A DNA stretch of 64,000 nt from Pandoraea pnomenusa. GTDB lineage: Bacteria; Pseudomonadota; Gammaproteobacteria; Burkholderiales; Burkholderiaceae. Numbering within the stretch: the stretch's first letter is position 1; each line of letters starts with the position of its first letter. Both the position numbers and the translations under genes were made by a program. The notes beneath the pieces were generated by a model that was given only the letters and a program-made list of their open reading frames with translations, searched no databases and was not told where the DNA came from. The stretch spans positions 1,922,001 to 1,986,000 of the forward strand of contig NZ_CP009553.3 of NCBI RefSeq assembly GCF_000767615.3, read 5' to 3'. Positions 10,201 to 29,981 of the stretch are shown piece by piece.

Positions 10201-10276
10201 ACGGCCGCGATGGCGCTGTGATACGCTCTCCCCTTCGTGGAGACGACGCGCTCAAGGTGTCGCGGTCTCCGGCGAG

Positions 10277-10905: not shown

Positions 10906-10974
10906 TTCGGTTGCGCGGTACGGCGCCGTCGCACATGTGACGGTGCGAGGCCGCGTTGCGATGGCATCGATCCA

Positions 10975-12858: not shown

Positions 12859-12870
12859 GGTAAGCCCGCG

Positions 12871-12879
12871 TGCTATAAT
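12871..12879 (+). promoter_or_regulatory. Extended -10 promoter for rpoD
   Basis: TGC TATAAT at 12871-12879 is a perfect -10 hexamer with the TGn extension. No good -35 is seen at 16-18 bases (GAAGTT region), which an extended -10 can tolerate. Transcription would begin near 12886, about 36 bases before the rpoD ATG. Confidence 0.6.
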
Positions 12880-12921
12880 GGAAAGTTTTCAGTGGGCTGT
12901 TTTCTGGCAAGCGAGATCGCT

Positions 12922-15558
<2,637 letters not shown>

Positions 15559-15586
15559 TTGCTGCTGAGCGAGCGCCGGTAGTTGA

Positions 15587-15662
<76 letters not shown>

Positions 15663-15672
15663 AAGAAGCAAG

Positions 15673-15707
15673 AAAGCCCCTGACGGTGACGTCAGGGGCT
15701 TTTTTTA
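15673..15707 (+). terminator. Terminator after rpoD/tRNA
   Basis: AAAGCCCCTGAC at 15673-15684 pairs perfectly with GTCAGGGGCTTT at 15691-15702 around a six-base loop, followed by more T residues to 15706. It lies 10 bases after the tRNA. Confidence 0.85.
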
Positions 15708-15863
15708 TGTCAATAAGTTGCGTAGAAATTCTCGCCCCGGGTGCCCACGCTCATTCCGATGGGACGAGAGTGCCGGTAGCGTGATCTCTCCACCAAAAAA
15801 TGGCCCTTGGTTGGTGCACCTGCGGCGACATCCTCGGATGCCATCGGCGGTCGCCGCGCATGC

Positions 15864-16238
15864 TCAGGTCTGGGCGTCGAACACTTCGCGTGCGACACGG
15901 AAGCTGTCGATCGCCGCAGGCACACCGGCGTAGATCGCGGCTTGCAGGAACACCTCGGTGATTTCCTCCTTCGTCACGCCGTTGGTCAGCGCGCCGCGCA
16001 CATGCAGCTTCAGCTCGTGCGGACGATTCATGACCGTGAGCATGCCCAGATTCAGCAAGCTCCGGGTGCGCCGGTCGAGACCCGGGCGATTCCATATCTC
16101 GCCCCAACAGTACTCCGTCACCAGTTCCTGCATCGGGCGATTGAAAGCATCGGCCGACGCAATCGACTTATCCACGTACTCGCTGCCGAGCACCTCGCGG
16201 CGCGTCTTCAGCCCCTTCTCGAACAATTCCGGATTCAT
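15864..16238 (-). CDS. Carboxymuconolactone decarboxylase (PcaC-like) family protein
   Basis: This 124-residue protein has the all-helical CMD fold pattern: LVTEYCWGEIWNRPGL, then RTRSLLNLGMLTVMNRPHELKLHV, then ITEVFLQAAIYAGVPAAI. The size and absence of a CxxC redox pair resemble PcaC, which decarboxylates 4-carboxymuconolactone in protocatechuate breakdown, rather than AhpD. No other pca gene is present, so a role on a different intermediate is likely. It is the last gene of the leftward island, 31 bases after the ABC substrate-binding protein gene, and is probably cotranscribed with it. Confidence 0.85.
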   Translation of the reverse strand: MNPELFEKGLKTRREVLGSEYVDKSIASADAFNRPMQELVTEYCWGEIWNRPGLDRRTRSLLNLGMLTVMNRPHELKLHVRGALTNGVTKEEITEVFLQAAIYAGVPAAIDSFRVAREVFDAQT

Positions 16239-16269
16239 TGGACACCTCCCTCATTTTTCATTTCGGCAA

Positions 16270-17292
16270 TTACTTCGCCTTGGCCGCGGTCGCCACCCAC
16301 TGATCCATCTGCGCCTTGTTGGCGGCGATCCACTCGTCCGAGAGTTTCGTTATCAGCGCCGGCGAGCCGCCTTCCTTGCTGATGGTAGCCTCCCACTGCG
16401 ACCACGTCTTGCCTGGGAAGCGGATCTGCTCGATGAGCGCCTTCACGGCCGGGTTAGCGGCAATGAACTGCTTGTTTGCGACCGAGCCCCAGTTCCAGGA
16501 CGCCATCGCCATGCGGCACGGATTCGCCCCGCCAGCGCACCCCTCGACGTTGTTCACGAGCGCCGAGCCCTTGTTGGGGACGTTCGGCGGGAGTGCGTCA
16601 GCCGGGGTCGGGAGCCACACCACATCCACGCCCGGCACGAGCGCGTTCGTCACCCATGACGGACTCCACGCGTAGAAAAATGCCGGCTTGCCCTGTCTGA
16701 CCTTCGTGACCGCCTCGACCATCAGCGCTTCGTACTTGCCTCGCACTGCCTTGACCGTCGGCTTCAGGCCGAACTTGTCGAGCTGGTAATCGACGACATC
16801 GCCGCAACTCCAGCCCGGATCGCAACTGATCAGCTCGGCCTTGCCGTCCTTGCCGAAGAGTCCGGCGATCTTCGGATCCTTCATCTGCTCGAGACTGGTG
16901 ATGTGATACTGCAGCGCCGTCTTCTTGTCGATCAGATAGCCGTTGATGCCATCGCCCGCGATGAGGCCCGAGCCCACGATCATCGCCTGCGACGCCACCG
17001 CGCGGAAGCCCGGTTCACGTTGCGGGAAGTTCACATCGGTGGCGATGTCGATATCGCCTTGCGCAACCGCCTGGAAGAACAGCGTCGTATTCATCGTACT
17101 GAGCTTGACGTCGTACCCCAGCCCCTTGAACGCCTTCGAGACGATCTGGGCGACGACGTAATTACCGCCGAAGCTGTCGCTTTGCGCGTAATGGATCGTC
17201 TTTCCCGTGCCCGGAAGCGTCTGGGCATGCAACGCGCCCGCCGCGACCAGCGAAAACGTGAACGAAGCAACCGCCTTTGCGAATCCTTTCAT
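16270..17292 (-). CDS. ProX/OpuAC-type glycine betaine ABC transporter substrate-binding protein
   Basis: The 340-residue protein starts at the ATG at 17292 with a signal peptide: MKGFAKAVASF, a hydrophobic core, and a cleavage site at ALHA/QT. The mature part begins with GKTIHYAQSDSFGGNYV and contains tryptophan-bearing segments (PGWSCGD, YAWSPSWV) of the type that cage quaternary ammonium groups in ProX relatives. It would bind the substrate in the periplasm for the permease and ATPase encoded just upstream. A gap of 157 bases separates it from the permease gene. Within an uptake-catabolism cluster, the ligand is more likely a nutrient than an osmoprotectant, but its identity is unknown. 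An earlier start would add charged residues before the signal peptide and is rejected. Confidence 0.9.
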   Translation of the reverse strand: MKGFAKAVASFTFSLVAAGALHAQTLPGTGKTIHYAQSDSFGGNYVVAQIVSKAFKGLGYDVKLSTMNTTLFFQAVAQGDIDIATDVNFPQREPGFRAVASQAMIVGSGLIAGDGINGYLIDKKTALQYHITSLEQMKDPKIAGLFGKDGKAELISCDPGWSCGDVVDYQLDKFGLKPTVKAVRGKYEALMVEAVTKVRQGKPAFFYAWSPSWVTNALVPGVDVVWLPTPADALPPNVPNKGSALVNNVEGCAGGANPCRMAMASWNWGSVANKQFIAANPAVKALIEQIRFPGKTWSQWEATISKEGGSPALITKLSDEWIAANKAQMDQWVATAAKAK

Positions 17293-17449
17293 TGCTGCTC
17301 TCCAAGACCTGTTCGATCTTTCCGATCGTCGAGTTATCGGCCCGCGGGACTTCCGCCCGAGGGCTCGGGTGCCGATCCCTGACACCGTCGTCATGGCCGG
17401 CGTTTCTGTGCTGCCAAACGTACGAAAACCTGATGCTCCGCCGCTTCGT

Positions 17450-18403
17450 TCAGAGCGCTTCACGCGCATCCGCCGCACGCGCCGTCGGCGGCACTTCGGC
17501 CCCCGCCCGACGCTCCCCACGAAACAATCGCGAGATCACCGCCCGAAACGTCTGCTGATCGCGCGGCTTCGTGCGTGCGAGCTTCTGTGTGAACCGGTCG
17601 AGCATCATGGCCAGCAACACGATGGCGATGCCACCGACAGCCGCGCGTCCCACATCGAGTCGCCCCAGCCCCTGCAGCACCACCAGCCCGAGACCTTCCG
17701 CGCCGATCATGGCCACCACGACCGACATCACCATCGCCGTGAGCACGGTCTGGTTCAGGCCACCGAGAATCGTCGGCACCGCGAGCGGCAATTGCACCTC
17801 CCACAGCAACTGACGCTTGTCCGCCCCAAACGCGAGACCGGCTTCCACGATTTCATGCTCGACCATGCGAATGCCCAGATGCGTGAAGCGGATGAGCGGT
17901 GGCATCGCGGCCGTCACCACGGCGACTTCGCCCGGCACGTTGCCCACGCCGAAGAGCATCACCACCGGCACGAGATATACGAACGTCGGGGTCGTCTGCA
18001 TGATGTCGAGCACCGGTCGCACCACCAGCCACGCTCGCTCGCTGCGCGCGCTCCAGATGCCGATGGGAATGCCAATGAGCGCACAGAACAGAATGGCGGT
18101 CATGATGAGCGAGAGCGTCGTCATCGCTTCGCCCCACACCCCGAGCATGGCGATGACCACGAACACGACGGCGCTGAATGCCGCGACGCCAAGACTGGCC
18201 AAACGCCAACACAGCAGGAACGCGATCACGACCATCACCGGGAACGGCGCGGCGTGAAATACGCTGTCGTTGAACGTCAGCAACCGCTCGACAGGCCATT
18301 TGATGACCAGGAACAGCGGACGCATGTGCAGCGCCATCCATTGCACGCCCTCCTGAATCCATTGATCGAAGGGGAATACCGCAAGTTGGTCGGCATTAAG
18401 CAT
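17450..18403 (-). CDS. ProW/OpuAB-type ABC transporter permease
   Basis: This 317-residue inner-membrane protein has about six to seven helices. The ABC-coupling loop EAGLAFGADKRQLLWEVQLPLA near the middle fits the EAA motif that contacts the ATPase, and TTPTFVYLVPVVMLFG and GLNQTVLTAMVMSVV are typical of ProW. The ATG at 18403 overlaps the end of the ATPase gene by eight bases, which argues for translational coupling. Together with the neighbours it forms a complete type I importer for a betaine-like compound. Confidence 0.9.
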   Translation of the reverse strand: MLNADQLAVFPFDQWIQEGVQWMALHMRPLFLVIKWPVERLLTFNDSVFHAAPFPVMVVIAFLLCWRLASLGVAAFSAVVFVVIAMLGVWGEAMTTLSLIMTAILFCALIGIPIGIWSARSERAWLVVRPVLDIMQTTPTFVYLVPVVMLFGVGNVPGEVAVVTAAMPPLIRFTHLGIRMVEHEIVEAGLAFGADKRQLLWEVQLPLAVPTILGGLNQTVLTAMVMSVVVAMIGAEGLGLVVLQGLGRLDVGRAAVGGIAIVLLAMMLDRFTQKLARTKPRDQQTFRAVISRLFRGERRAGAEVPPTARAADAREAL

Positions 18404-19445
18404 GATGGTCTCCTGCGCCGGCAGTGGCGCCAATCCGGGCAAGCAACTGCCCCACGTCCAGCACTCCGATCAGCTTGCCGTCGTCGTCGGTCACACCCAT
18501 CGGTCCGTCGGATTTGAAACGCGCGGCCACATCGACCAGGCGCATGTCGGCCGGCACGCATGGCAACCCGTGCTCGCATTGGGCGAGCACCGCGGGCACG
18601 GGCGCCATCACCGAACGTGCATCGAAAAGGCGGGCACGGTCGACGTCACGGGTGAACGCCGCCACGTAGTCGCTGCCCGGATCCAGCACGATCTGTTGCG
18701 GCGTGCCTTCGCGCACAAGGCGACCCTCCGACATGATGGCGATGCGCGTGCCGAGCTTCAGCGCTTCCTGAAAGTCATGCGTGATGAACAGAATGGTCTT
18801 GTTGAGCGTGTGCTGAAGACGCAGCAGCTCGTCCTGCATTTCCGTTCGGATGAGCGGATCGAGCGCGCTGAAGGCTTCATCCATGATGAGGACGTCCGCC
18901 TCGGTAGCGAGCGCACGGGCCAGCCCCACGCGCTGCCGCATACCGCCGCTCAGTTCGTGCGGCATGTGATACGCCCAGCGCGCCAGTCCAACCACGCACA
19001 GCACCTCCTCGGCGCGACGGCGCCGCTGTGCTGCCGGCATGCCACGCAGCTTGAGTCCGAACTCCACGTTTTCGATGACACGGCGATTCGGTAGCAGCGC
19101 GAAGTGCTGGAACACCATCGATATGCGATTGCGACGCACCTCGCGCAGCCCCCCCTCGTGAAGCGCACACAGGTCCTCGCCGTCAAGCAGAATCCGGCCG
19201 TCGGAAGGCTCGTTGAGGCGGTTGATGCAACGCGCGAGCGTCGATTTCCCGGAGCCGGAGAGCCCCATGATCATGTAGATCGCACCGGACGGAACCGTCA
19301 GGGAGACGTCGTCGAGTCCCACGACCTGGCCGAGCGTTTCGAGCACCTCGGACTTGCGTTTGCCGTCGCGCAACATGGCCAGCGCTCGCGCCGGCTTGTC
19401 GGCGAAGACCTTGTACAGGTTTTCGATTCTCAGTCGGTCAGTCAT
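18396..19445 (-). CDS. ProV/OpuAA-type ABC transporter ATP-binding protein
   Basis: This 349-residue ATPase powers the importer. Walker A is GLSGSGKST, the signature is LSGGMRQRVGLARAL, and Walker B is VLIMDEAFSALDP followed by the switch histidine in FITHD. The N-terminal ENLYKVFADKPARAL is diagnostic for the ProV branch, and a C-terminal CBS-like regulatory region follows. The ATG at 19445 has a near-perfect AAAGGAGG ribosome site and overlaps the NIPSNAP gene by eight bases. Overlaps on both sides show that the transporter belongs to the same transcript as the enzymes. Confidence 0.92.
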   Translation of the reverse strand: MTDRLRIENLYKVFADKPARALAMLRDGKRKSEVLETLGQVVGLDDVSLTVPSGAIYMIMGLSGSGKSTLARCINRLNEPSDGRILLDGEDLCALHEGGLREVRRNRISMVFQHFALLPNRRVIENVEFGLKLRGMPAAQRRRRAEEVLCVVGLARWAYHMPHELSGGMRQRVGLARALATEADVLIMDEAFSALDPLIRTEMQDELLRLQHTLNKTILFITHDFQEALKLGTRIAIMSEGRLVREGTPQQIVLDPGSDYVAAFTRDVDRARLFDARSVMAPVPAVLAQCEHGLPCVPADMRLVDVAARFKSDGPMGVTDDDGKLIGVLDVGQLLARIGATAGAGDHHA

Positions 19446-19815
19446 GGCCAACCTCCTTTGGGTCCGTAGAATGATGGTCCGTGGCAGCCTGTGGCGTGAA
19501 CGCCGTGAGCGGGGAAAAATCGGTCGGTACCAGAATGCGGTTCTCGGCGGTTTCGATCAATTCGGACAGACGCGGAATGAACGCCTGCCAGCGCTTGTCT
19601 TGCGCCAGGCGCGCGCGACGCCTGGCACGCTCGTCCAGACTCGGATACGCCCAGAGATGGGTCACCTGACTGAGCACACCGATCTCCGTCGTGAAATACC
19701 CGACGAGATGCCCGAGGATGGGCTGCTGAATCGCCAGCCCTTCGGTCCGCACGAGATTCAGGTACAGACTCATGCAACCGTTGCGAATGCGGTAAATGCG
19801 CTCTTCGACGATCAT
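19438..19815 (-). CDS. NIPSNAP family protein
   Basis: This 125-residue protein has the NIPSNAP ferredoxin-like pattern: MIVEERIYRIRNGCM at the start, then LVGYFTTEIGVLSQVTHLWAYPS and RARLAQDKRW. Such small dimeric alpha-beta barrel proteins often sit in catabolic operons and may act as enzymes or chaperones for reactive intermediates; no reaction is assigned. The start overlaps the stop of the hydrolase gene by four bases, and its stop overlaps the ATPase start. This tight packing is evidence of one operon. Confidence 0.82.
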   Translation of the reverse strand: MIVEERIYRIRNGCMSLYLNLVRTEGLAIQQPILGHLVGYFTTEIGVLSQVTHLWAYPSLDERARRRARLAQDKRWQAFIPRLSELIETAENRILVPTDFSPLTAFTPQAATDHHSTDPKEVGHD

Positions 19816-20690
19816 GCTGGGGGCCCCTTCTTTTCCGGGTCATCAACAAGGAAATCCAGCAACAGCCCCGCGACCGGCGCGGCCGCTTCGACCAGAATCG
19901 AATGCCGCATGCCCGGCAGGATGGCGAGTTGCGAGCCGACGATGCACTCATGCATAAAGCGGGCCATGCGCGGGTTCGAGCCCTGATCGTCTTCGCCGGT
20001 GACGATGAGCGTCGGCACGCGGATCTGATCGATGAACCCGCCGAAATCGGTCTCCGCCAGCACGCGGTAGGCCGACGCATAACAATCCGGATCGTTCTGC
20101 GCATTGCGATTGCGCAGATAGACGATCCGCTCCGGATGTCTCGCCTGAAAGTCTTCCGTCAGCCAGCGAGACAGCGAGGCGTCGTAATGGGCGCCACGCT
20201 CGCCGCCCTGCAACGCGGCGAGCCTCGCGAGTACGCGCTCGCGCTCCTCTTTGGTCCGGCCCGACACCGTGGCGAGCAGCGCAAGACGACGCAGGCGCGT
20301 CGGATACGAGAGCGCCAGCCGCTGTGCGATCAGCCCGCCCAGCGAGAAGCCCGCGAGATCGAACGTGGCGAAGCCCACGTGATCCGCAAGTGCCAGCGCG
20401 TCGGCGACGAAATCGTCGATCTCGTATCGTCCCTTTACCCGCGACGAGTTGCCGTGACCGCGCAGATCGAAGGTGAGGATGCGGAAGTCGTCGGCCAGCA
20501 GGGTAGCCACGTCGTCCCAAGCTTCCTGGTACGATCCCACGCCGTGAATGCACACGAGCGGGCGGGTGCCTCGGCCGAGCAGGCGATAGGCCAGCGTGAC
20601 ATTGCCGACTTGCAGCGTCTGTGCGGGCGAATCGGTGGACGAATCGGTGGGCGAATCGGTGGGCGGTTCGGTCATGGCGCGCGCACTCAT
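19812..20690 (-). CDS. Alpha/beta-fold hydrolase
   Basis: This 292-residue protein has the serine-hydrolase elbow AGFSLGGL, the oxyanion-hole HGVGS segment, the DLRGHGNS loop and a late histidine in GMRHSILVE, giving a Ser-Asp-His triad. The closest groups by pattern are 3-oxoadipate enol-lactonase and related lactonases, but amide or ester hydrolysis is equally possible. The N-terminal 25 residues contain a short repeat of PTDS/STDS units coded by near-identical 12-base repeats and are probably disordered; a shorter start at the ATG for MTEPPTD is possible. It sits three bases after the LLM gene. Confidence 0.82.
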   Translation of the reverse strand: MSARAMTEPPTDSPTDSSTDSPAQTLQVGNVTLAYRLLGRGTRPLVCIHGVGSYQEAWDDVATLLADDFRILTFDLRGHGNSSRVKGRYEIDDFVADALALADHVGFATFDLAGFSLGGLIAQRLALSYPTRLRRLALLATVSGRTKEERERVLARLAALQGGERGAHYDASLSRWLTEDFQARHPERIVYLRNRNAQNDPDCYASAYRVLAETDFGGFIDQIRVPTLIVTGEDDQGSNPRMARFMHECIVGSQLAILPGMRHSILVEAAAPVAGLLLDFLVDDPEKKGPPA

Positions 20691-20693
20691 GCG

Positions 20694-21830
20694 TCAGCGG
20701 CCCGCCGATGCCAGCGCGGCCGGACGCCCAGACGTCTCGGCCAACTGTGCCGCCGCAGCCGCATTGGCCTCCCTGGCGCGACCTGCTTCACGCGCGGCGA
20801 AATGGGGCATCACTTCGTCGATGAACAGACGCAGCGTCTTTACCTGCAACTCGAACGGCAGATTGAACGACAGGCCGAGGCAGAACTGGTCGACGCCTTG
20901 CGCCTCGTACACTTCGAGCTTGCGCACGATCTCGTCCGGCGTGCCAAACATCAGGTTTTCTCGGATTGCCGCCGGATCGTAGTTGGCGCGCCCGACAACC
21001 GACTCGTACGGCACGGCTTCCGGGAAGCCGTTCCTGACGGTGCCGATGTTCTGCATCAGGTTCTCGAACGTGCGGCCGAAATCCACGCTGTGACGCACGG
21101 CGATTTCCCAGTCCTGCGGACGGTCGTACACGCAGGTGCGGCGCAGCATCATGAAGCGCGGCCGCGGGCGTTCCGGATGATCGGCCACTGCCTTGCGGAA
21201 TTTATCGCCCAGCACGGCGACTTCGGAGACAGGGGCGGCGAGCGGCGTCGACAGGATGTTCGCGCCAACACCGACGGCCCAGTCGAAACTGCCCGGATCA
21301 CGTGTTGCCACCCAGATCGGCGGATGCGGCTGTTGCAGCGGCTTGGGCACCGACGTGGCGAGCGGGAATTGCCAGTAATGCCCGTCATGCGCGTAATCGC
21401 CTTCCCACAACTTCTTCACCGCCGGCACCAGTTCCTTCATGTACGCCACGCCTTCCTGCTGCGGAATACCGCCCGCCATGCGGTCGAACTCATACTGATA
21501 CGCGCCGCGCGCGATACCGAATTCGAGGCGTCCGCCCGTCAGGTGGTCGCACATCGCGGCCTCGCCTGCCAGACGAATCGGCGACCAGTACGGTGCGACG
21601 ATGGTGGCCGTGCCCAGACGGATCTGCTCGGTGTGCTGCGAGAGCCACGTAAGCGTGATGAACGGGTTCGGCGAGATGGTGCATTCGATGGTGTGGTGCT
21701 CGGCGGTCCACAGCGTCTCGAAGCCGCCTTCGTCGGCGATGCGCGCGAGGTGCAGCATGTTGCGCACGGCGTCGTTCATCGTGTCCTGCGGCGAGAAGCG
21801 CTCCATGCTGAGCGATACGGAGAATTTCAT
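20694..21830 (-). CDS. LLM-class (bacterial luciferase-like) flavin-dependent monooxygenase
   Basis: This 378-residue protein begins MKFSVSLSMERF and shows the luciferase-like TIM-barrel pattern: GGFETLWTAEHH, then SPNPFITLTWLSQHTEQIRLGT, LTGGRLEFGIARGAYQYEF, and PHPPIWVATRDPGSFDWA. Such enzymes use FMNH2 from a separate reductase to insert oxygen into C-N, C-S or carbonyl substrates. The flavin reductase gene two genes upstream is the natural partner. The ATG at 21830 is preceded by GGAGATC; an earlier start would add 11 charged residues. The exact substrate is unknown. The C-terminal 30 residues are alanine-rich and probably disordered. Confidence 0.9.
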   Translation of the reverse strand: MKFSVSLSMERFSPQDTMNDAVRNMLHLARIADEGGFETLWTAEHHTIECTISPNPFITLTWLSQHTEQIRLGTATIVAPYWSPIRLAGEAAMCDHLTGGRLEFGIARGAYQYEFDRMAGGIPQQEGVAYMKELVPAVKKLWEGDYAHDGHYWQFPLATSVPKPLQQPHPPIWVATRDPGSFDWAVGVGANILSTPLAAPVSEVAVLGDKFRKAVADHPERPRPRFMMLRRTCVYDRPQDWEIAVRHSVDFGRTFENLMQNIGTVRNGFPEAVPYESVVGRANYDPAAIRENLMFGTPDEIVRKLEVYEAQGVDQFCLGLSFNLPFELQVKTLRLFIDEVMPHFAAREAGRAREANAAAAAQLAETSGRPAALASAGR

Positions 21831-21872
21831 GGGTAGATCTCCAGGGGGTTTTCGTTTGTGCATTGCGGGCGA

Positions 21873-23384
21873 TCAGCGCAGACGGATCACGAACGGATCC
21901 TGCATCGCCCCCGAGTAATCGATCACGACGTTCTTCAGACGGGAGAACTCGCGCATCACTTCGAAGCCGCCGCGACGGCCGTAGCCGCTGTGCTTGGTGC
22001 CGCCGTTGGCTGACATGTAAGCCGCCGAGCGATAGGTATTGATCCAGACCGTGCCCGCCTCCACGTCGCGCGCGAAGCGCATGGCGCGGTCGATGTCGCG
22101 CGTCCAGATGCCGGCGGCCAGGCCATACTCCGTGGCATTTGCCAGCCGGATGAGTTCGGCTTCGTCCGAGAACGGCACGACACCGACGACCGGACCGAAG
22201 ATCTCCTCCTGCATGAAGCGCATTTCGTTGCGCGCATGCGTCATGACGGTCGGCTCGTAGTACCAGCCACCGGTGAGATCGTCGCGCGCCGGGCGCTGAC
22301 CGCCGGCGGCCACGCGCGCCCCTTCCTGAATGCCCGAAGCCACGTAGCCCTCGACCTTGTCCAATTGCGCGGCCAGCGCCAGCGGTCCGATGTCGGTGTC
22401 TTCGTGCGTCGGATGCCCCACACGCACCCGACGCGTGCGCTCAACCAGCGCCTCGACGAAACGGTCGTGCACGGACGCCTCGACGAAGCAGCGTGACCCG
22501 GCCACGCATGTCTGACCGGCGGCGGCGAACACGCCCGAGACGACGCCGTTCACGGCGCGCTCGATGTCGACGTCGCCAAACACCACGTGCGGCGACTTAC
22601 CTCCGAGTTCCATCTGACAAGGCACCAGATTTTGCGCAGCGTTGCCGGCAATCTTGCGCCCGGTCACGGTGCTGCCCGTGAAAACGTATTTGGCGATGCC
22701 GGGATGACGCGTCAGCGCGTCGCCGGTGGTCATGCCGTCGCCCGTCACCACGTTCACGACGCCCGGCGGAATACCGGCTTCGATCGCCAGTTCGGCGAGC
22801 GCGAGCGTGGACGCCGTCGCGTGCTCCGATGGCTTCACCACGATGGTGTTGCCAATCGCAAGACAGGGTGCGAGCGTGCCGGTGAGCATCATCAGGGGCG
22901 AGTTCCACGGAATGATCATGCCGACCACGCCAATGGGCTCGCGCGTGTTGAAGTTCAGCGTGTCGAGCTTGTTGACGGGAATGGTGTCGCCTTGCAGCTT
23001 GTCTGCCATGCCCGCGAAATACGAATACGAATCGGGAATCGCCCGCATCTGCGCACGCATTTCCTTGAGCAGCTTGCCGTTGTCGCGGCACTCGATGGCG
23101 GCGAGCGCTTCGGCGTTGGCGAGCACCAGTTCGCCGAGCTTGCGCACGAGCTTGCCACGCTCGGTTTGCGTCATGCGCCGCCAGGCCGGGTTGACGAGCG
23201 CCGCTTGTGCGCAGCGTACGGCGCGGTCGACGTCCACCGCATCGGCCTGCGCGAACTCGTACCAGGGGCGGCCGGTCGTCGGGTCGTAGCTCGGAACGTA
23301 CACGTTGCTATGCGGCGCGGTGAACTGCCCGTCGATAAACAGTTGCTGGCGAGAGCCTTCCAGCGTTTGTACCGTCGTATGCAT
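21873..23384 (-). CDS. NAD(P)-dependent aldehyde dehydrogenase
   Basis: This 503-residue ALDH-superfamily enzyme oxidises an aldehyde to an acid. The cofactor-binding IIPWNSPL and VKPSEHA, the general base E259 in MELGGKSP, and the nucleophile C293 in AAGQTCVAGSR are all intact. The C-terminal substrate-channel region reads WINTYRSAAYMSANGGTKHSGYGR. It follows the flavin reductase by 15 bases and precedes the LLM monooxygenase by about 40, so it is placed to oxidise an aldehyde released when the monooxygenase cleaves a C-N bond. This last statement is inference. Confidence 0.93.
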   Translation of the reverse strand: MHTTVQTLEGSRQQLFIDGQFTAPHSNVYVPSYDPTTGRPWYEFAQADAVDVDRAVRCAQAALVNPAWRRMTQTERGKLVRKLGELVLANAEALAAIECRDNGKLLKEMRAQMRAIPDSYSYFAGMADKLQGDTIPVNKLDTLNFNTREPIGVVGMIIPWNSPLMMLTGTLAPCLAIGNTIVVKPSEHATASTLALAELAIEAGIPPGVVNVVTGDGMTTGDALTRHPGIAKYVFTGSTVTGRKIAGNAAQNLVPCQMELGGKSPHVVFGDVDIERAVNGVVSGVFAAAGQTCVAGSRCFVEASVHDRFVEALVERTRRVRVGHPTHEDTDIGPLALAAQLDKVEGYVASGIQEGARVAAGGQRPARDDLTGGWYYEPTVMTHARNEMRFMQEEIFGPVVGVVPFSDEAELIRLANATEYGLAAGIWTRDIDRAMRFARDVEAGTVWINTYRSAAYMSANGGTKHSGYGRRGGFEVMREFSRLKNVVIDYSGAMQDPFVIRLR

Positions 23385-23399
23385 CAGTTGACTCCAGCG

Positions 23400-24416
23400 T
23401 CAGGCTTGGAAAGGTTGGGTCCACGGCTGTGCATCGCTGACCATTGCGATGCGCCCACCATCGTGAGAATCCATGTAAATGCCGAAGTGTCCTCCGGCGG
23501 TTTCGCGAACGTAGCGACGCACCATCGATCGAATTTCGCGGGACGCGATGTCGTCGTAGGGCAACTGGTCGAACGGGAAGAAGCGGAAGTTCGGCGGCAG
23601 CTCGTCGTGCGAGAGCGGTTGCGCGAGTCGCGCCCGGTACATCAGATAGCCGGGATCGTTCTCGGCGGTGTCGAACACCGAGTAGAGAAAGGTGTCGTGC
23701 GGCACCAGCTCGAGTTCACCGCCACCGGCGAGCGGCAGGCGTCCGCTCGCAAGACGGCGCGGCGCGCTGGGCAGTACCCATCCGCCCTTGCCGTCCTGCG
23801 CGAGCAGCAGGCTTCCGTTCGCGTCGATCAGATAACCGACAATCATGTCGTGCGACGACAGCCAGCCCGGCGGCAACGGATCTTTCACATGGGCGTAGCG
23901 ACCACGGCAGAAGCCGAGCGGCGCGGCCGGGCTGGTACCGAAGGCCTGAATCTGGCCGATCAGGATGGCGTGGTCGCCGGCGTCGACGCGGTTGTGCACA
24001 ATGCAGTCGAACCACGTCAGGCAGTCGGTCAGGACCGGCGCGCCCGTGTGGACGACGTCATGCCCCACCGTCGTGAACTTCTCCGCGGACTTCGATGCGA
24101 ACAGGTTCGACACTTCGGTCTGGCCGTCATGCAGCAGATTGACGGCGAAGTGTTCCGTGCGCTGGAACACCGGGTAGCTCGCCGCACGCTTGCCGATGCA
24201 TACGAGCAACAGCGGCGGGTCGAGCGAGACGGACGTGAAGGAGTTGGCGGTCATGCCGCGCGGGCGGCCTTCTTCGTCACGCGTCGTGACGACGGTCACA
24301 CCGGTCACGAATGTTCCGAGCGCGCGGCGTAGCGCCACCGGGTCGATGGCCGAAATCGCGGGGGCGGTGCCAGCGCCGGCCGCGGGCGTCTGGCGCTGTT
24401 GGGTGACAGCTTGCAT
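23400..24416 (-). CDS. Flavin reductase fused to a Nudix-like C-terminal domain
   Basis: The protein has 338 residues. Residues about 25-185 form a flavin reductase-like split-barrel domain: RRALGTFVTGVTVVTT, GMTANSFTSVSLDPPLLLVC and the C-terminal PLGFCRGRY. It would supply reduced FMN to the LLM monooxygenase. Residues about 190-330 (GYLIDANGSLLLAQDGKGGWVLPSA onward) look like a Nudix fold, but the canonical Nudix box with its REVxEExG core is absent, so it is probably a non-hydrolytic or altered domain. It is the first gene of the leftward operon, immediately downstream of a large palindrome and the pucR-like gene. Confidence 0.82.
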   Translation of the reverse strand: MQAVTQQRQTPAAGAGTAPAISAIDPVALRRALGTFVTGVTVVTTRDEEGRPRGMTANSFTSVSLDPPLLLVCIGKRAASYPVFQRTEHFAVNLLHDGQTEVSNLFASKSAEKFTTVGHDVVHTGAPVLTDCLTWFDCIVHNRVDAGDHAILIGQIQAFGTSPAAPLGFCRGRYAHVKDPLPPGWLSSHDMIVGYLIDANGSLLLAQDGKGGWVLPSAPRRLASGRLPLAGGGELELVPHDTFLYSVFDTAENDPGYLMYRARLAQPLSHDELPPNFRFFPFDQLPYDDIASREIRSMVRRYVRETAGGHFGIYMDSHDGGRIAMVSDAQPWTQPFQA

Positions 24417-24419
24417 GTC

Positions 24420-24453
24420 GTTGACCTCGAAACGTCATTACGTTGAGGTCAAC
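24420..24453. promoter_or_regulatory. Palindromic operator candidate before the flavin reductase gene
   Basis: GTTGACCTC at 24420-24428 is mirrored by GAGGTCAAC at 24445-24453, and inside lies AACGT (24431-24435) mirrored by ACGTT (24440-24444). The site starts four bases before the ATG of the flavin reductase and lies in the 93-base gap behind the regulator gene. It could be an operator for the whole leftward operon. It has no T run, so a terminator is unlikely. Confidence 0.55.
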
Positions 24454-24509
24454 GATATGCGAGGACTTTTTTGTCGGCTTCCGTCGAATCGCAGGAGACG
24501 CGAAGTGGT

Positions 24510-26450
24510 TTACTCTCGATTGCGCGGCAGGGTTTTCATGGATGCGCTCGCCACACGCCCGCCGGCATGCACGCTCGACGCGGCCTGCATGGCTTTTGAC
24601 TTCGCCCCTTCGGTGGATGGCGCCGCCCCAGGTGTGACGGGAGCCGCGCGCTTCGTGAGCGCGTGCAGATGAATGGCAAGCTCCACCGCGAAGCGGCGCT
24701 CCGGTGTCTCCACGTCGATGCCGAACAACTCCTGAATGCGGGCGAGGCGGTACCGCAGCGTGGTGACGTGCAGTCCCATCGCGTCGGCGCACGGCTGACT
24801 GCGGCAGCCGGAGCGTACGTATTCCGTCAGCGTGTCGAGGTACGGCGATCCCGACTGTCGGTCGTGTTCGACGAGCTTGCCGATGGTGCCTTCCACAAAA
24901 CCGTGGACGTCGGACGAATCGGCCGCTCCCATGAGCATCGGCAGGGGGCCCAGGCCCGGCATGTCCAGCGGGCCGCTGCGACCAAACTTGCGCGCCACGC
25001 GAATCATGCGCCAGCAACGCTCCCATTCGCGCGCGAGCGGCTCCAGCCCTTCGCAGAGATCGCTCATCACGATGATAGGCTCGCGTCCCAGGGACCGTGC
25101 CAGCGCCTCGCTCATGCGCCTGGCGAGGCGGGCGAGTGCGGTGGCGTCTGCCGAACCGTCCTGCGGCGCCAGACACACCAGACCGCCTCCGATCGTCACG
25201 ATGTGCATCGGCACATTCAACTGACGGGCAAGCAATTCGACCGTGCTATGGCTCTCCAGCGACAGATGCCCGGCGGCACGGCCCGAGGCCACACTGGTTC
25301 GCTGGTCCGGATAATCGACGACCATCATGCGCAGCGGCGCATCGAGGGCGACGCCGAGATGGCGGGCGCGGCTAATCAAATCGCCTTCATCTCGCCAGCG
25401 GCGCTCCACAATCTCGAAGAACAACTCGGTGAGCGTGCGTGTCTCGAACCGGAACCGCACCACGCTGCGCATCAGTTGAACGCTCAGCGCAAAGCGGGCG
25501 CTCTCCAACAGTAACTGCTGGAGGTCGCTCAGCGCATCGTCGCCGAACGTGAGCAGCGCGCCGACGAGGTCGTCGTCGACCGTCAACGGTTCAATGCCCG
25601 CGCCGACGGTGGCCTGACCGGGGGGACGTCCCAGCGGCACGTCGAGGCGGGTCTGACGGTAGCGTTGCAGGGCGTCGCGCACGTTAGCGCTGAGCTCTCG
25701 CCCCTGTGCGCCGGACAGCCAGCGTGTCCACGCCGCATCGTCCATCAGCGAGGGAACGGGCGACGCCGACGCGTGCCATTGATTGGCGAGGAAGTCGATG
25801 ACGAGCACCGGACGTCCGATCAGATCGCTCAGCGACGACGTCAACTGATCGAACGAGCCGCCGGCGAGCACATCGCCCAGCAACGTGCGTTGCGCTTCGA
25901 GCGTGCGTTGCAGACGCTCATGCGCCATCACCTGCGCGCGCTGCCGGTGAGCCCGCTCCACCGCAATCGCGCCGAGATGCACGACCGTCGCCATGAAGGT
26001 GAGGTCGTCCTCGCCGACGTCGCGCACCTTGCGCGATGCGACCGTCAGCACCATCGGCCGGCCTTCCGTATCGCGCGAGGCCATCGGCAGTACCAGCACC
26101 GTCCGGTAGCCGCGCTCGCGCGCTTCGCGCCGGTAGCCGGGGAATTGCGGGTTCTCCAGCGCATCGCGGATATAGACGGGTTCATTCGTCTGCAAGGCGA
26201 TGAGCGACGGACTGGTCGCCAACTCCCAGCGGTCTTCGACATGCTGCGGCAGCATGCTTGTCTCGAAGCGCGTGATCACCAGCCCGTAGCCATGGGCGAG
26301 ATCGATGCTCATGACGGAGCCGAGATCCCACCCACCTTGCTGCACCGCACCACGCACGAGATCGCGAAACAGTGCGTCGATGTCTTCGTCATTGCTGATC
26401 TGACTGGCGACATGGCGCAATGCCATGAGCCGTTGGTGATGTTCCGGCAT
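24510..26450 (-). CDS. PucR/CdaR-type transcriptional regulator with GAF domain
   Basis: This 646-residue regulator has a GAF-like sensory domain at residues about 10-175 (RHVASQISNDEDIDALF, then PMASRDTEGRPMVL), a middle region of the CdaR GGDEF-like type, and a C-terminal PucR helix-turn-helix (TLTEYVRSGCRSQPCADAMG, then LHVTTLRYRLARIQELF) at about 555-600. Such proteins are usually activators that respond to a pathway substrate. It is divergent from the DUF1185 gene and precedes the flavin reductase operon on the same strand, so it can control both arms. The last 40 residues are low-complexity. The inducer is unknown. Confidence 0.88.
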   Translation of the reverse strand: MPEHHQRLMALRHVASQISNDEDIDALFRDLVRGAVQQGGWDLGSVMSIDLAHGYGLVITRFETSMLPQHVEDRWELATSPSLIALQTNEPVYIRDALENPQFPGYRREARERGYRTVLVLPMASRDTEGRPMVLTVASRKVRDVGEDDLTFMATVVHLGAIAVERAHRQRAQVMAHERLQRTLEAQRTLLGDVLAGGSFDQLTSSLSDLIGRPVLVIDFLANQWHASASPVPSLMDDAAWTRWLSGAQGRELSANVRDALQRYRQTRLDVPLGRPPGQATVGAGIEPLTVDDDLVGALLTFGDDALSDLQQLLLESARFALSVQLMRSVVRFRFETRTLTELFFEIVERRWRDEGDLISRARHLGVALDAPLRMMVVDYPDQRTSVASGRAAGHLSLESHSTVELLARQLNVPMHIVTIGGGLVCLAPQDGSADATALARLARRMSEALARSLGREPIIVMSDLCEGLEPLAREWERCWRMIRVARKFGRSGPLDMPGLGPLPMLMGAADSSDVHGFVEGTIGKLVEHDRQSGSPYLDTLTEYVRSGCRSQPCADAMGLHVTTLRYRLARIQELFGIDVETPERRFAVELAIHLHALTKRAAPVTPGAAPSTEGAKSKAMQAASSVHAGGRVASASMKTLPRNRE

Positions 26451-26489
26451 TGCGTGCCTCCTTTCTCGCCCAAAAAATCTACACCAAAG

Positions 26490-26529
26490 CGTCGGAAGAA
26501 AAAAAACATCTTCCGACGTTCCGGCGGAA
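26490..26529. promoter_or_regulatory. Inverted repeats in the divergent pucR/DUF1185 promoter region
   Basis: CGTCGGAAGA at 26490-26499 pairs with TCTTCCGACG at 26509-26518 around an A-rich nine-base spacer, and TTCCG/CGGAA repeats again at 26519-26529. The block sits 40 bases upstream of the regulator start on one side and 165 before the DUF1185 start on the other. It is a candidate binding site for the regulator. The rest of the 244-base gap shows nothing clear. Confidence 0.5.
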
Positions 26530-26694
26530 GACCGGCCGCTTCGGGCGCAATAGCATGAGTCTCATCGGCAAGCCACGGATGTTTGCCACGTTTTCCCCAG
26601 GCGCCCGGATCGCCGCGGCGCACGTCCTTCGAGCCGCTTCGCCGCACGAGCGGCAGGTGACGGCATCTGTACTGCAGCGCAACAGGAGACACCC

Positions 26695-27297
26695 GTGAAA
26701 CAAGAGCTTCGCAAGATCGCAACGTACGTCGAGACCACCTACCGTGAGGGCGGCAAGGCCGCCGAGACGCCGGTCACGACGGTCGTCGTCGCCGCTGTCA
26801 TTCGCAATCCATGGGCCGGTCAGGGATTCGTCGAGAATCTGCGTCCGGAAATCGTGCGTCTCGCCCCGGAGCTTGGTGCGCTAATGACGCAACGTCTGGT
26901 CGATGTCATCCCAGGGGAGCGCGTGGAGGCATACGGCAAGGCGGCTGTCGTCGGCACGAACGGCGAAATCGAACATGCCTCGGCCATGATTCACACGCTG
27001 CGCTTCGGCAATCTGTTCCGCACCGCCGTGAACGGCACGGCCTTCCTGCCGTTCACCAACACGCGCGTCGGCCCGGGCACGCTGGTGTCGGTGCCGATGA
27101 TTCACAAATCGGAAACGGGCAAGCGTTCCCACTTCATCACGGCGACGTTCCAGATGACGGATGCCCCTGGCCCAGACGAAATTCTGCTGGCGATTGGCGC
27201 GTCCGACGGCGGCCGCGTGCATCCGCGCATCGCCGACCGCTTTAAGGACATGGAAGAGATGGCGAACGACGCCGCCACCGCGGCCACCACAGCCTGA
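26695..27297 (+). CDS. DUF1185 (amino acid synthesis) family protein
   Basis: This 200-residue protein matches Pfam AA_synth/DUF1185: RKIATYVETTYREGG, then TTVVVAAVIRNPWAG, GEIEHASAMIHTLRFGN and MTDAPGPDEILLAIGASDGGRVHPR. Solved family members have a variant chorismate-mutase fold, and their genome context suggested a role in amino-acid metabolism, but no reaction has been proved. It is the first gene of the rightward arm, divergent from the PucR regulator. The ATG-equivalent is a GTG at 26695 after CAGGAGAC. It probably acts on the same compound as the LLM/flavin reductase arm. Confidence 0.85.
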   Translation: MKQELRKIATYVETTYREGGKAAETPVTTVVVAAVIRNPWAGQGFVENLRPEIVRLAPELGALMTQRLVDVIPGERVEAYGKAAVVGTNGEIEHASAMIHTLRFGNLFRTAVNGTAFLPFTNTRVGPGTLVSVPMIHKSETGKRSHFITATFQMTDAPGPDEILLAIGASDGGRVHPRIADRFKDMEEMANDAATAATTA

Positions 27298-27309
27298 ACG
27301 AGCGCCACG

Positions 27310-28254
27310 ATGCCGCCCGTCATTGCCTTCCTTAGCCGGATGTCCGCGGACTATCAACGTCCGTACCTCGACGCCCTGCGCGCCGCGCTGCCCGGCGAGA
27401 TCGTCGCGCCGCTGGCCGAACTGTCGGCGTCGCAGCGCGAGCAGGTGTCCGTTGCCATCGTCGCGAATCCGGATCCCGCGGACTTGACCGCCCTGACGGG
27501 CTTGCGATGGATTCAGAGCCTTTGGGCCGGCGTGGAATCGCTCATCGCGGCGCTCCCGTCGGACAGTCCGCCGATCACGCGACTGATCGATCCCGAGATG
27601 TCGCGCACGATGGCCGAGGCCGTGCTGGCGTGGACCTACTACCTGCAACGCGACATGCCCCGCTACGCGCGTCAGCAAACGCAGCGCGTTTGGTTGCAGC
27701 ACGCCTATCGCAAGCCGTCGCAGACGACGGTGGGATTGCTCGGACTCGGTGAACTCGGGCAGGCGGCCGCGGTGCGATTGCGCGACGCCGGGTTCGTCGT
27801 GCACGGATGGAGTCGTTCGCCGAAGACGCTGGACGGCGTCGAAACGTACGCTCGCGACGACGGCCTGTGCGCGATGCTCTCCGCAAGCGACATCGTCGTC
27901 AGCCTGATTCCGTTGACGGCGCAAACCCGAGGTATGCTGGACGCGGAGCGCCTCGGTCGCATCAAACCGGGTGCCTCGCTCATCAATTTCTCGCGTGGTC
28001 CTGTGATCGTGGCGTCCGACTTGCTCGACGCCCTCGACCGGGGCCACCTCACGCATGCCGTGCTCGACGTGTTCGACGTCGAACCGCTGCCGCTCGATTC
28101 GTCGTTCTGGGACCATCCGCGCGTGACCGTGCTGCCGCACATTTCGGCACCCACGGATCATGAGACGGCAGCGCGAGTGATCGCCGACAACATCCGCGAT
28201 TTTCGCGAAACGGGACGAGTTCCCTGCAACGTCGACCTGACGCGAGGTTATTGA
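27310..28254 (+). CDS. D-isomer-specific 2-hydroxyacid dehydrogenase (GhrA-like)
   Basis: This 314-residue enzyme reversibly reduces a 2-oxoacid using NAD(P)H. The nucleotide-binding motif is GLLGLGELGQAAAVRL near residues 140-155, followed by GWSRSPK, which suggests NADPH preference. The catalytic Arg lies in INFSRGPVI, the Glu in DVFDVEPLP, and the His in VTVLPHISAPT, all as in glyoxylate/hydroxypyruvate reductase A. It starts 12 bases after the DUF1185 gene and its stop lies two bases before the next start, so the three are one operon. The substrate is not known. Confidence 0.9.
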   Translation: MPPVIAFLSRMSADYQRPYLDALRAALPGEIVAPLAELSASQREQVSVAIVANPDPADLTALTGLRWIQSLWAGVESLIAALPSDSPPITRLIDPEMSRTMAEAVLAWTYYLQRDMPRYARQQTQRVWLQHAYRKPSQTTVGLLGLGELGQAAAVRLRDAGFVVHGWSRSPKTLDGVETYARDDGLCAMLSASDIVVSLIPLTAQTRGMLDAERLGRIKPGASLINFSRGPVIVASDLLDALDRGHLTHAVLDVFDVEPLPLDSSFWDHPRVTVLPHISAPTDHETAARVIADNIRDFRETGRVPCNVDLTRGY

Positions 28255-28256
28255 GC

Positions 28257-29306
28257 ATGCATCGCGATCAAGAGGTTCTCGCACTTCCGCCGCGTGTGTA
28301 TCCGACGGTCGATCTTCGTCAGGACGGCGTCCAGCACGGCTTTCTGAAAGTCCCGCACTCCAACGATACGAGTGCGTGGGGCGCCGTGATGGTGCCGATC
28401 ACCGTCATCCGGCGTGACGACGGCCCCGTCGCGCTACTCACCGGCGGCAATCATGGCGACGAGTACGAAGGGCCTATCGTGCTATCGCGACTGGCGAATG
28501 CCCTCAAGACACGCGACGTCACCGGCACCGTCATCATCGTGCCGTTCATGAACACGCCTGCCGTGCATGCGGGAAAACGCACGTCGCCGCTGGACGGTGG
28601 CAACCTGAACCGCGCTTTCCCGGGACGCGCCGACGGCTCGGTCACCGAGCGCGTGGCCGACTATTTCTCACGTTGCCTGCTGCCCATGGCGGACGTCGTG
28701 CTCGACATCCATTCCGGAGGTCGTACGTTGGATTTCCTGCCGTTCGCCGCCATCCACGAACTGAACGACACCGAGCAACAAGCCCGTTGCGACGCCGCGA
28801 TGCAGGCCTTCGGCGCACCCTATTCGCTGCGCATGCGAGATCCCGATGCTCACGGACTTTACGACAATGCGGCGGAATCGCAGGGCAAGGTGTTCGTTAC
28901 GACGGAGCTCGGCGGCGGTGGAACGGCAAGTGCGCGCAACGTCGCAATCGCGCATCGCGGCGTGTACGGCGTGCTCGTGCACGCAGGCATCGTGCCGGCC
29001 GACGTGGCATGGCGCGACGGCGCTGACGCCGCGAGCGAGGCAACGTCGGTACAACTCGCCATGCCTGACGACGACTGCCACCTCACCAGCGAGCACGACG
29101 GGCTGCTTGAAATGCGCCATGACCTCGGCACGATGGTGAAGCGTTGCGACGTCATTGCGCGCGTTCACGACGTGACACGGACGGGCGTCGCACCAGTGGA
29201 GTACCGGGCAAGACGCGATGGCATGCTCATCGGCCGACATTTTCCGGGCCGCGTCGGCATCGGTGACACGCTCTGCGTTCTGGCCGACGTGCTGCCGAGC
29301 GCATAG
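28257..29306 (+). CDS. M14-family succinylglutamate desuccinylase/aspartoacylase-like deacylase (DoeB-like)
   Basis: This 349-residue zinc hydrolase shows the metal-binding GGNHGDEYEG (His and Glu) and DIHSGG (third ligand His), with the catalytic Glu region TTELGGGGTASA further on. The pattern fits the DoeB group, which removes the acetyl group from N-acetyl-2,4-diaminobutyrate in ectoine breakdown, and other N-acyl amino acid deacylases. The following Lrp/AsnC, dehydrogenase and aminotransferase genes echo the doe gene set, but the ectoine ring hydrolase DoeA is missing, so the substrate is uncertain. The ATG at 28257 follows the previous stop by two bases. Confidence 0.85.
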   Translation: MHRDQEVLALPPRVYPTVDLRQDGVQHGFLKVPHSNDTSAWGAVMVPITVIRRDDGPVALLTGGNHGDEYEGPIVLSRLANALKTRDVTGTVIIVPFMNTPAVHAGKRTSPLDGGNLNRAFPGRADGSVTERVADYFSRCLLPMADVVLDIHSGGRTLDFLPFAAIHELNDTEQQARCDAAMQAFGAPYSLRMRDPDAHGLYDNAAESQGKVFVTTELGGGGTASARNVAIAHRGVYGVLVHAGIVPADVAWRDGADAASEATSVQLAMPDDDCHLTSEHDGLLEMRHDLGTMVKRCDVIARVHDVTRTGVAPVEYRARRDGMLIGRHFPGRVGIGDTLCVLADVLPSA

Positions 29307-29358: not shown

Positions 29359-29838
29359 ATGGTGAAACTCGACCGTTTCGACATCGCCATCCTCAGTGTG
29401 CTGGCCCGTGAAGGCCGCATCACCAAATCGCGTCTGGCCGAGCGGATCCACCTGTCCGTTTCGCCCACGTGGGAGCGCGTGCAGCGACTCGAAGCGGCGG
29501 GGGTGATTCGTGGCTATCGCGCCGACGTCGACTGGAGCGGCGTGATGCACGTCAGCCGTATCATCGTCGAGATCACGCTCGCGCGGCACACCGCGCATGA
29601 CATGAACCGCTTCGAGGCGCGCCTGTGCGACGCCCCCGAGGTCGTGCAATGCCACGCCACAGGTGGCGGTGTCGATTACATCGTTCACGTACTCGCGCGC
29701 GACATCGATCATTACCAGCGTTTCATCGACGGCCTGCTGATGGCGGACTTGGGCATCGAGCGCTACTTCACCTACGTCGTTACCAAAGTCGTCAAAGTCC
29801 AGGCGCACGCAGTTCCGGGCTGGGTCGACGCCGACTGA
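29359..29838 (+). CDS. Lrp/AsnC family transcriptional regulator (DoeX-like)
   Basis: This 159-residue regulator has an N-terminal winged helix-turn-helix (LDRFDIAILSVLAREGRITKS, then LAERIHLSVSPTWERVQRLEAAGVI) and a C-terminal RAM domain (IIVEITLARHTAHDMNRFE to YVVTKVV) that senses an amino acid-like effector. It lies between the deacylase and the dehydrogenase/aminotransferase block and probably controls one or both. An Lrp-type regulator also sits in ectoine degradation clusters (DoeX). Confidence 0.88.
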   Translation: MVKLDRFDIAILSVLAREGRITKSRLAERIHLSVSPTWERVQRLEAAGVIRGYRADVDWSGVMHVSRIIVEITLARHTAHDMNRFEARLCDAPEVVQCHATGGGVDYIVHVLARDIDHYQRFIDGLLMADLGIERYFTYVVTKVVKVQAHAVPGWVDAD

Positions 29839-29981
29839 TCGCGGTCCGCGAAATCTTTCTCGCCAGGCACGGCTAAATCAGAAGAAAACCGACGTCCGCA
29901 CGATCGGAACAGAAAAAACAGCGGGCCGTCGCCACCGACAATCGCTTCATGACGAACGAACGCCATGTCAGGAGTTTGCCG

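Follow-up and report, generated by a model that had tools for sequence, protein, structure and literature searches.

Gene organization of the predicted catabolic island

We analyzed a 64,000-nt stretch of the Pandoraea pnomenusa genome (5.39 Mb, single contig NZ_CP009553.3, positions 1,922,001 to 1,986,000; hereafter the window), in which two divergent gene sets with predicted functions in uptake and oxidation form a block of 18 genes and approximately 20 kb (15,864-35,968 of the window). A single catabolic island is the best explanation for this block. A preliminary description of the same DNA had ended the island at 29,306 and had found no described pathway with its exact gene set. The island is real and larger than described earlier, and its core is not unprecedented: it is a variant of the trigonelline (tgn) type that carries, in Pandoraea, an ectoine-type (doe) back end without DoeA. 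The claim of novelty held for the exact set but overlooked these two precedents.

The left arm lies on the reverse strand. Its first gene encodes a PucR-family regulator with a GAF domain (24,510-26,450; PF13556, PF17853, and PF13185), followed by genes for a TgnA-like flavin reductase with a Nudix-like C-terminal domain (23,400-24,416; PF01613), a TgnC-like aldehyde dehydrogenase (ALDH1; 21,873-23,384; PF00171), a luciferase-like (LLM) flavin-dependent oxygenase related to TgnB but belonging to a separate clade (20,694-21,830; PF00296), a TgnD/PcaD-like alpha/beta hydrolase (19,812-20,690; PF00561), and a NIPSNAP protein of a type also found in trigonelline-type loci (19,438-19,815; PF07978). 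The arm continues with a ProV-like ATPase (18,396-19,445; 325.8 bits with TIGR01186 vs a cut-off of 326.6, and 375 bits with TIGR03415, below its cut-off of 484), a ProW-like permease (17,450-18,403; 324.5 bits with NF008196, below the cut-off of 439), and a ProX-like betaine-binding protein (16,270-17,292, with the ATG ending at 17,292 chosen as the start; 379 bits with NF008334 vs a cut-off of 215; PF04069). It ends with a CMD-family protein (15,864-16,238; PF02627) that is close to PcaC (4-carboxymuconolactone decarboxylase) and scored 154.6 bits with TIGR02425 (cut-off 155.7).

The right arm, on the forward strand, begins with a TgnF-like DUF1185/PF06684 protein (26,695-27,297; PF06684, E = 8e-66; solved homologues 2QTP and 3BYQ) and a GhrA-like 2-hydroxyacid dehydrogenase (27,310-28,254; PF02826; 169 bits with NF012013, below the cut-off of 403). 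The third gene (28,251-29,306) had been described as an M14 deacylase; the family was right, and the product is more exactly a DoeB/EutE-type N-acyl-diaminobutyrate deacetylase (489 bits with TIGR02994 vs a cut-off of 402.7). Its start was taken as a TTG, with an ATG 6 bp further in. Beyond 29,306, where the preliminary description stopped, the arm runs on along the same strand through an Lrp/AsnC regulator in the DoeX position (29,359-29,838), a second aldehyde dehydrogenase in the DoeC position (ALDH2; 29,949-31,457), a class-III aminotransferase in the DoeD position (AT1; 31,508-32,893; 857 vs 687 bits with NF005684), a second class-III aminotransferase (AT2; 33,058-34,437; 828 vs 729 bits with NF004625), and a third aldehyde dehydrogenase (ALDH3; 34,496-35,968), which is nearest to a succinate-semialdehyde dehydrogenase (SSADH) of Rhizobium etli plasmid p42c and is thus TgnE-like.

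The positions and families given earlier for the nine leftward genes, PucR, DUF1185, the 2-hydroxyacid dehydrogenase, and the deacylase were all recovered. The arms are indeed divergent, but not across the PucR gene, which is itself leftward; the divergent region is the 244-bp intergenic region between PucR and DUF1185 (26,451-26,694). With the starts given above, gaps within the arms ranged from -8 to 164 bp. The overlapping stops and starts described for the nine leftward genes were found at three of their eight junctions (ProW/ProV, -8 bp; ProV/NIPSNAP, -8 bp; NIPSNAP/hydrolase, -4 bp) but not at the other five, of which four have gaps of 3-42 bp and one, ProX/ProW, a gap of 157 bp. In the right arm, DUF1185 and the dehydrogenase are 12 bp apart, and the dehydrogenase/DoeB junction is -4 bp.

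Conservation of the core

Named genomes were scanned with the LLM protein, and the best 80 of 201 confirmed loci were taken; together with four plasmid loci (L045, L046, L049, and L134) and three loci from a draw of genomes of the family (L165-L167), they make up 87 loci of the window's kind (W loci). The criterion of choice was the similarity of their LLM protein to that of the window, and the loci are not fully independent of one another: L166 duplicates L072, L071 shares 97.5% identity with L072 over 14.8 kb, and L087 shares 98% with L089 over 6.6 kb. Genes were counted by the single best match per place with partial matches dropped, and the counts of accessory genes are lower bounds.

The neighborhood check proposed in the preliminary description showed that the core recurs in most of the 87 loci and that the arrangement is not due to chance: LLM was found in 87, PucR and the hydrolase in 86 each, the flavin reductase and DUF1185 in 85 each, and ALDH1 in 83. 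An importer was of the ProXWV-like type in 48 loci and of the amino-acid type in 35; no locus had both, and four had neither. Among the accessory genes, CMD was present in at least 42 loci, NIPSNAP in at least 48, the dehydrogenase in at least 34, and Lrp in at least 37. An aminotransferase of at least 50% identity adjoins at least 15 of the 87, and the Pandoraea loci, which stop in or before AT1, are undercounted here; AT2 adjoins the core in L085, L071, and L072/L166, the last being a single locus met twice. In L064, L067, and L068 (Burkholderia/Caballeronia), the W region has at its far end a gene that we read as a DAO-type FAD oxidoreductase.

The W loci are scattered rather than universal. 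The eight best of the named loci by LLM protein belong to Pandoraea (93-96% identity). Of 200 genomes drawn evenly from the family, 15 (nine of them Pandoraea) had an LLM match of at least 83% and 18 others one of 43-47%; among 369 genomes drawn from the class, only the window's own genome had a reductase match above 50%.

The Nudix-like tail ascribed earlier to the flavin reductase stood as a fold relationship, in that the profile of the W-family reductases matched the NUDIX hydrolase 3CNG at positions 178-298 (E = 1.9e-6) and 3RH7 over positions 5-316 of 326. It did not stand as a Nudix-box protein: the box, in the form that we take its pattern to have, occurred in none of the 35 members of the reductase family, and a catalytic Nudix tail was rejected. 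Pfam assigned Flavin_Reduct alone to all 35. The C-terminal domain resembles a Nudix-like fold without the catalytic motif, as far as can be judged from sequence and profile matches, and by analogy with other two-component reductases it may sense the substrate.

The importer and ALDH1 bear on the simplest alternative, namely a generic oxidation of a betaine or amine (glycine betaine, choline, carnitine, or sulfonate type) without ring cleavage. ProX passed the glycine betaine cut-off and ALDH1 scored best with a betaine-aldehyde dehydrogenase model; however, ALDH1 fell short of that model's cut-off (493 vs 669 bits), and the subunits did not all pass as a ProU glycine betaine importer, ProX being over its cut-off and ProV and ProW under the PRK cut-offs. 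The combination of LLM, flavin reductase, ALDH, hydrolase, and DUF1185 is, moreover, that of the trigonelline-type loci. We consider generic oxidation very improbable, and less likely than cleavage of an N-heteroaromatic ring.

Relationship to trigonelline-type loci

In the trigonelline pathway, tgnA-F of Acinetobacter baylyi ADP1, the ring is opened by TgnA and TgnB, and the resulting compound is converted further by TgnC and TgnD. A description of the pathway was reportedly given by Perchat in 2018. Loci of this second kind (T loci; 13 examined, of which L035, L038, L040, L041, and L042 are contig fragments or incomplete) contain DUF1185, hydrolase, reductase, LLM, and ALDH genes, often with GntR, NIPSNAP, and SSADH genes; examples are R. 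etli p42c, S. meliloti pSymA, Acinetobacter junii, and Pantoea. The left arm of the island, DUF1185, and an SSADH-like ALDH together comprise every tgn gene type. Relative to R. etli p42c, the proteins of the six tgn-type genes were 32-52% identical (hydrolase, 32%; reductase, 35% over 312 aa; LLM, 42%; ALDH1, 45%; DUF1185, 51%; ALDH3, 52% to the SSADH), the NIPSNAP protein was matched at 52%, and ALDH2 was 46% identical to the SSADH.

In a tree of 29 W and 25 T oxygenases selected by us, the two kinds formed separate clades (support 98/98 and 100/100), and 27 positions were fixed differently (fixation of at least 95% in both the 27 W and the 21 T sequences compared). The Acinetobacter proteins closest to the A. 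junii oxygenase (P0121-P0123) carry the NCBI name flavin-dependent trigonelline monooxygenase oxygenase component and fall in the T clade; the window oxygenase does not lie inside the clade of TgnB-named proteins in this tree. R. etli CFN42 has a W copy on p42f and a T copy on p42c, and another genome (G563) combines a W gene (86%) with a further LLM gene at 44%; the window genome has the W copy only (threshold E = 1e-20). Because the oxygenase clade is separate and R. etli CFN42 keeps both kinds on different plasmids, the W substrate probably differs from trigonelline.

These data must be weighed against the possibility that the island degrades trigonelline itself and that the W type is another version of tgn. 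All six tgn gene types are present; six W members (P0015, P0039, P0043, P0057, P0064, and P0114) among 120 listed proteins are named trigonelline monooxygenase in the database, presumably by homology; the window genome lacks a T-type copy; and none of the 32 Pandoraea genomes sampled has a second LLM match at E = 1e-60. However, both types are retained in R. etli CFN42, the clades are separate with their 27 fixed differences, and the hydrolase is the most diverged of the shared enzymes. Furthermore, PucR occurs in 86 of the 87 W loci vs none of the 13 T loci, of which 10 have a GntR match, and the importers of the two kinds differ. Degradation of trigonelline itself is therefore unlikely.

A third kind of locus was observed in Parasedimentitalea marina (L133), with genes for LLM (48% to the window), DUF1185, hydrolase, ALDH, RidA, and CoA-type enzymes; there is no annotated flavin reductase nearby, and a T_A-type match lies within a gene annotated as a CoA transferase.

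PMC7913881 reports that TgnF stimulates the TgnE-dependent oxidation of succinate semialdehyde in A. baylyi ADP1 and that no such stimulation was seen for its own homologue HcdD, so that the earlier statement that DUF1185 has no proven reaction needs qualifying: a role is reported for one homologue, and no effect could be seen for another. The DUF1185 crystal-structure paper proposed a function in amino-acid metabolism (PMC2954203). In the accessible text of PMC8269262 and PMC11354265, TgnB is named and the trigonelline paper is cited, and we found no further gene-function content there. Our literature search, made mostly without full texts, recognized no paper that assigns this cluster. Judged by titles and the beginnings of abstracts, no paper on the genes of homarine catabolism was recognized either; homarine is a candidate substrate.

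The ectoine-type right arm

From the deacetylase gene onward and past 29,306, the right arm follows the order doeB-doeX-doeC-doeD, which is the lower half of the ectoine cluster of Burkholderiaceae, with a second aminotransferase and an ALDH added. DoeB matched the solved N-acetyl-diaminobutyrate deacetylases 6TWL/6TWM with 415 bits. Outside Pandoraea, 35 genomes of the family draw have a DoeB match of 61-68% and one more a match of 38%. We compared 10 of those 35 loci (L155-L164) as an ectoine set: DoeA was found in all 10, and the order DoeB-Lrp-ALDH2-AT1 in eight, the exceptions being L159, with no ALDH2 or AT1 match, and L162, with no Lrp match. The island genes are collinear with these Burkholderiaceae ectoine clusters and 61-67% (DoeB), 66-76% (Lrp), 73-76% (ALDH2), and 79-82% (AT1) identical to them.

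DoeA itself (DoeA/EutD), the hydrolase that opens the ectoine ring, was not detected over the cut-off of 613 bits in the window genome (best match 42 bits) or in any of the 32 Pandoraea genomes (best match 68.6 bits); weak matches below the cut-off occurred in 31 of the 32 and likewise in all 14 control genomes. No EutB or EutC was present in the gene list of the island. The doeABCD genes and the regulator doeX of H. elongata serve to convert ectoine to aspartate, according to PMC3187862. A 2026 study of ectoine catabolism lists Burkholderia, Caballeronia, Paraburkholderia, and Trinickia as Burkholderiaceae with EutD, and its main text contains no mention of Pandoraea, luciferase, or trigonelline (PMC13188858).

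Ectoine genes adjoin W loci in at least 7 of 79 non-Pandoraea cases vs none of the 13 T loci, as raw counts: R. etli (L045), P. fungorum (L062), Bosea (L086 and L123), Rhizobiales (L088), and Azospirillum (L124 and L127). Genes that we read from the sequence as M20-type amidohydrolases lie near the W loci L049, L058, L068, and L115 (Ensifer, Caballeronia, and Chelativorans); the one in L049 is annotated "amidohydrolase". Such enzymes possibly stand in for DoeB.

Distribution and co-inheritance in Pandoraea

The LLM gene was found in 11 of the 32 Pandoraea genomes, AT1 (at least 92%) in the same 11, and neither in the other 21 at the thresholds used. The two genes are 8.8-10.0 kb apart in all 11. 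Lrp, ALDH2, AT1, AT2, and ALDH3 were full-length in each of the 10 other island-bearing Pandoraea, and the part of the right arm beyond 29,306 is thus inherited with the left arm in this genus. DoeB was whole (at least 80%) in 9 of the 11; in the other two (L174 and L180) doeB is reduced to short fragments between full-length dehydrogenase and Lrp neighbors, so deacylation by DoeB is dispensable. Three Pandoraea genomes have an additional distant DoeB relative elsewhere (39-40%). The dN/dS ratios (Nei-Gojobori) of the 15 island genes from CMD through ALDH2 against six Pandoraea loci were 0.01-0.18; those of DoeB in the five loci with a whole gene were 0.09-0.12.

This co-inheritance can also be read as that of two independent osmolyte modules: a betaine pathway of the tgn kind and, next to it, a lower ectoine pathway, remnant or repurposed, that scavenges N-acetyl-diaminobutyrate or diaminobutyrate, with no intermediates in common. 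In Azospirillum (L124 and L127), Rhizobiales (L088), R. etli (L045), and Bosea (L086 and L123), the W core adjoins whole or partial ectoine clusters that have a job of their own; on Agrobacterium fabrum pAt the core occurs with no annotated ectoine gene in the 24.6 kb covered; and the broken doeB genes of two Pandoraea fit this reading as well. However, none of the 32 Pandoraea has DoeA over the cut-off, yet Lrp, ALDH2, and AT1 remain full-length and linked in the window and 10 other genomes. The low dN/dS of DoeB, Lrp, and ALDH2 and the position of the ectoine-type genes directly downstream of DUF1185 and the dehydrogenase, across the 12-bp and -4-bp junctions, also argue against two unconnected modules, which we regard as somewhat unlikely.

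The left flank in the window (10,001-15,860) had no match in eight other named Pandoraea loci, and the two genes to the right of the island had none in 10 other Pandoraea stretches; the island therefore seems to lie at different places in different Pandoraea species, as judged from a few kilobases of flank. Between the CMD end of the island and a gene that we take from its translation to be rpoD (12,892-15,558) there is a tRNA-Met (CAT) gene (15,587-15,662); no tRNA was found in the short flanks of the eight other named loci. A classical tRNA-integrated genomic island was rejected, as the 3' end of the tRNA-Met has no second copy in the window and the GC content is no different (0.646 vs 0.645).

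Proposed pathway and its significance

The preliminary reading of a catabolic island for a betaine-like compound, equipped to import it, to oxygenate with FMNH2, to oxidize an aldehyde, and to hydrolyze, is supported by these results. With moderate confidence, we favor a tgn-like, FMNH2-dependent cleavage of a zwitterionic N-heteroaromatic ring, preceded by ProXWV-like import and followed by an ectoine-type aminotransferase/ALDH back end. The homology to the tgn genes, together with importers of the betaine or amino-acid type, leads us to infer a small zwitterionic substrate, which the importer would bring in; the likeliest candidates are relatives of trigonelline among the pyridinium-type betaines, heteroaromatics that carry an N-methyl or other N-substituent. 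The flavin reductase would supply FMNH2 to the LLM oxygenase, which would open the ring oxidatively to give an aldehyde bearing an N-formyl-type amide. ALDH1 would oxidize this aldehyde, and the alpha/beta hydrolase, possibly aided by the CMD protein, would free an amine, a formate part, and a semialdehyde. The SSADH-like ALDH3/ALDH2, assisted by DUF1185 in the manner reported for TgnF, and the class-III aminotransferases would then carry the fragments to central metabolism, and a possible task of DoeB is the deacylation of an N-acyl amino-acid by-product. PucR, probably a sensor of the substrate or a product, would govern both divergent arms. We infer in particular that the two halves act sequentially.

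Several observations weigh against this proposal. The make-up of the right arm differs from genus to genus, and DoeB adjoins at least 4 of the 79 non-Pandoraea W loci, with no more counted. The identity of the hydrolase to the T type is low (32%), and its best PDB sequence match is a lactonase (2XUA, 3-oxoadipate enol-lactonase). An N-methyl substrate would favor formaldehyde genes, which adjoin only 1 of the 87 W loci, and TIGR03105, a rough and nonspecific proxy for methylamine assimilation, was over the cut-off in none of the 32 Pandoraea. There are intermediates between the two oxygenase kinds: the LLM of L035 is 55% identical to that of the window yet has T-like neighbors, and that of Parasedimentitalea, at 48%, lies on the W side of a tree whose sequences were hand-picked. 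In L051, the aligned part of the PucR homologue contains a stop, and the literature search, mostly without full texts, found no substrate or activity for W-type proteins. The chemistry of the Tgn enzymes and the letters TgnA, C, D, and E assigned to the gene types are taken from general background. The broken doeB genes of L174 and L180 belong here too.

The single locus with adjoining formaldehyde genes is L060 of Burkholderia sp. H160, where two genes next after the CMD gene (17,303-19,286 of that locus) presumably encode a glutathione-dependent formaldehyde dehydrogenase and an S-formylglutathione hydrolase.

More tentatively, the W loci may represent a second, non-trigonelline pathway for ring cleavage of N-heteroaromatic betaines, scattered in rhizobia, Azospirillum, Bosea, Burkholderiaceae, and others, which in Pandoraea replaces DoeA and feeds doeX-C-D with or without doeB. 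If so, a cluster found in many soil and rhizosphere bacteria, whose genes currently carry generic oxidoreductase annotations or the transferred name trigonelline monooxygenase, would encode a separate pathway for an unrecognized plant- or soil-derived nitrogen compound. This would give DUF1185/PF06684 a consistent context, call for caution over automatic trigonelline naming, and illustrate how the back end of ectoine degradation can serve behind another front end. Since R. etli CFN42 carries both types on different plasmids, the question of the substrate is directly testable.

Comparison with known systems

The proposed route resembles, by description, the degradation of pyridine in Arthrobacter, in which an N-heteroaromatic ring is opened oxygenolytically by an LLM oxygenase and the product is passed to an ALDH and a hydrolase (an amidohydrolase); to our knowledge, neither DUF1185 nor a betaine importer belongs to that pathway. 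The Rut pyrimidine pathway also combines an LLM oxygenase (RutA), a flavin reductase (RutF), and an alpha/beta hydrolase (RutD). Membership in it was rejected, as the scores were far under the cut-offs (RutF, 94 vs 255 bits; RutD, 69 vs 239 bits).

The island is close in gene content to tgn of A. baylyi ADP1, which shares with the island a flavin reductase and LLM oxygenase, an ALDH, an alpha/beta hydrolase, an SSADH-like enzyme, and DUF1185; the rhizobial T loci share the NIPSNAP gene as well. Unlike tgn, the island has an oxygenase of its own clade, PucR in place of GntR, a ProXWV-like importer (amino-acid-type in some other W loci), and, in Pandoraea, attached aminotransferase and Doe genes. 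A CMD gene is present in at least 42 of the 87 W loci vs 2 of the 13 T loci. With the doe cluster of Halomonas elongata (PMC3187862), the island shares the order doeB-doeX-doeC-doeD; unlike that cluster, it has no DoeA over the cut-off in the 32 Pandoraea genomes, and it carries DUF1185 and the 2-hydroxyacid dehydrogenase at its head.

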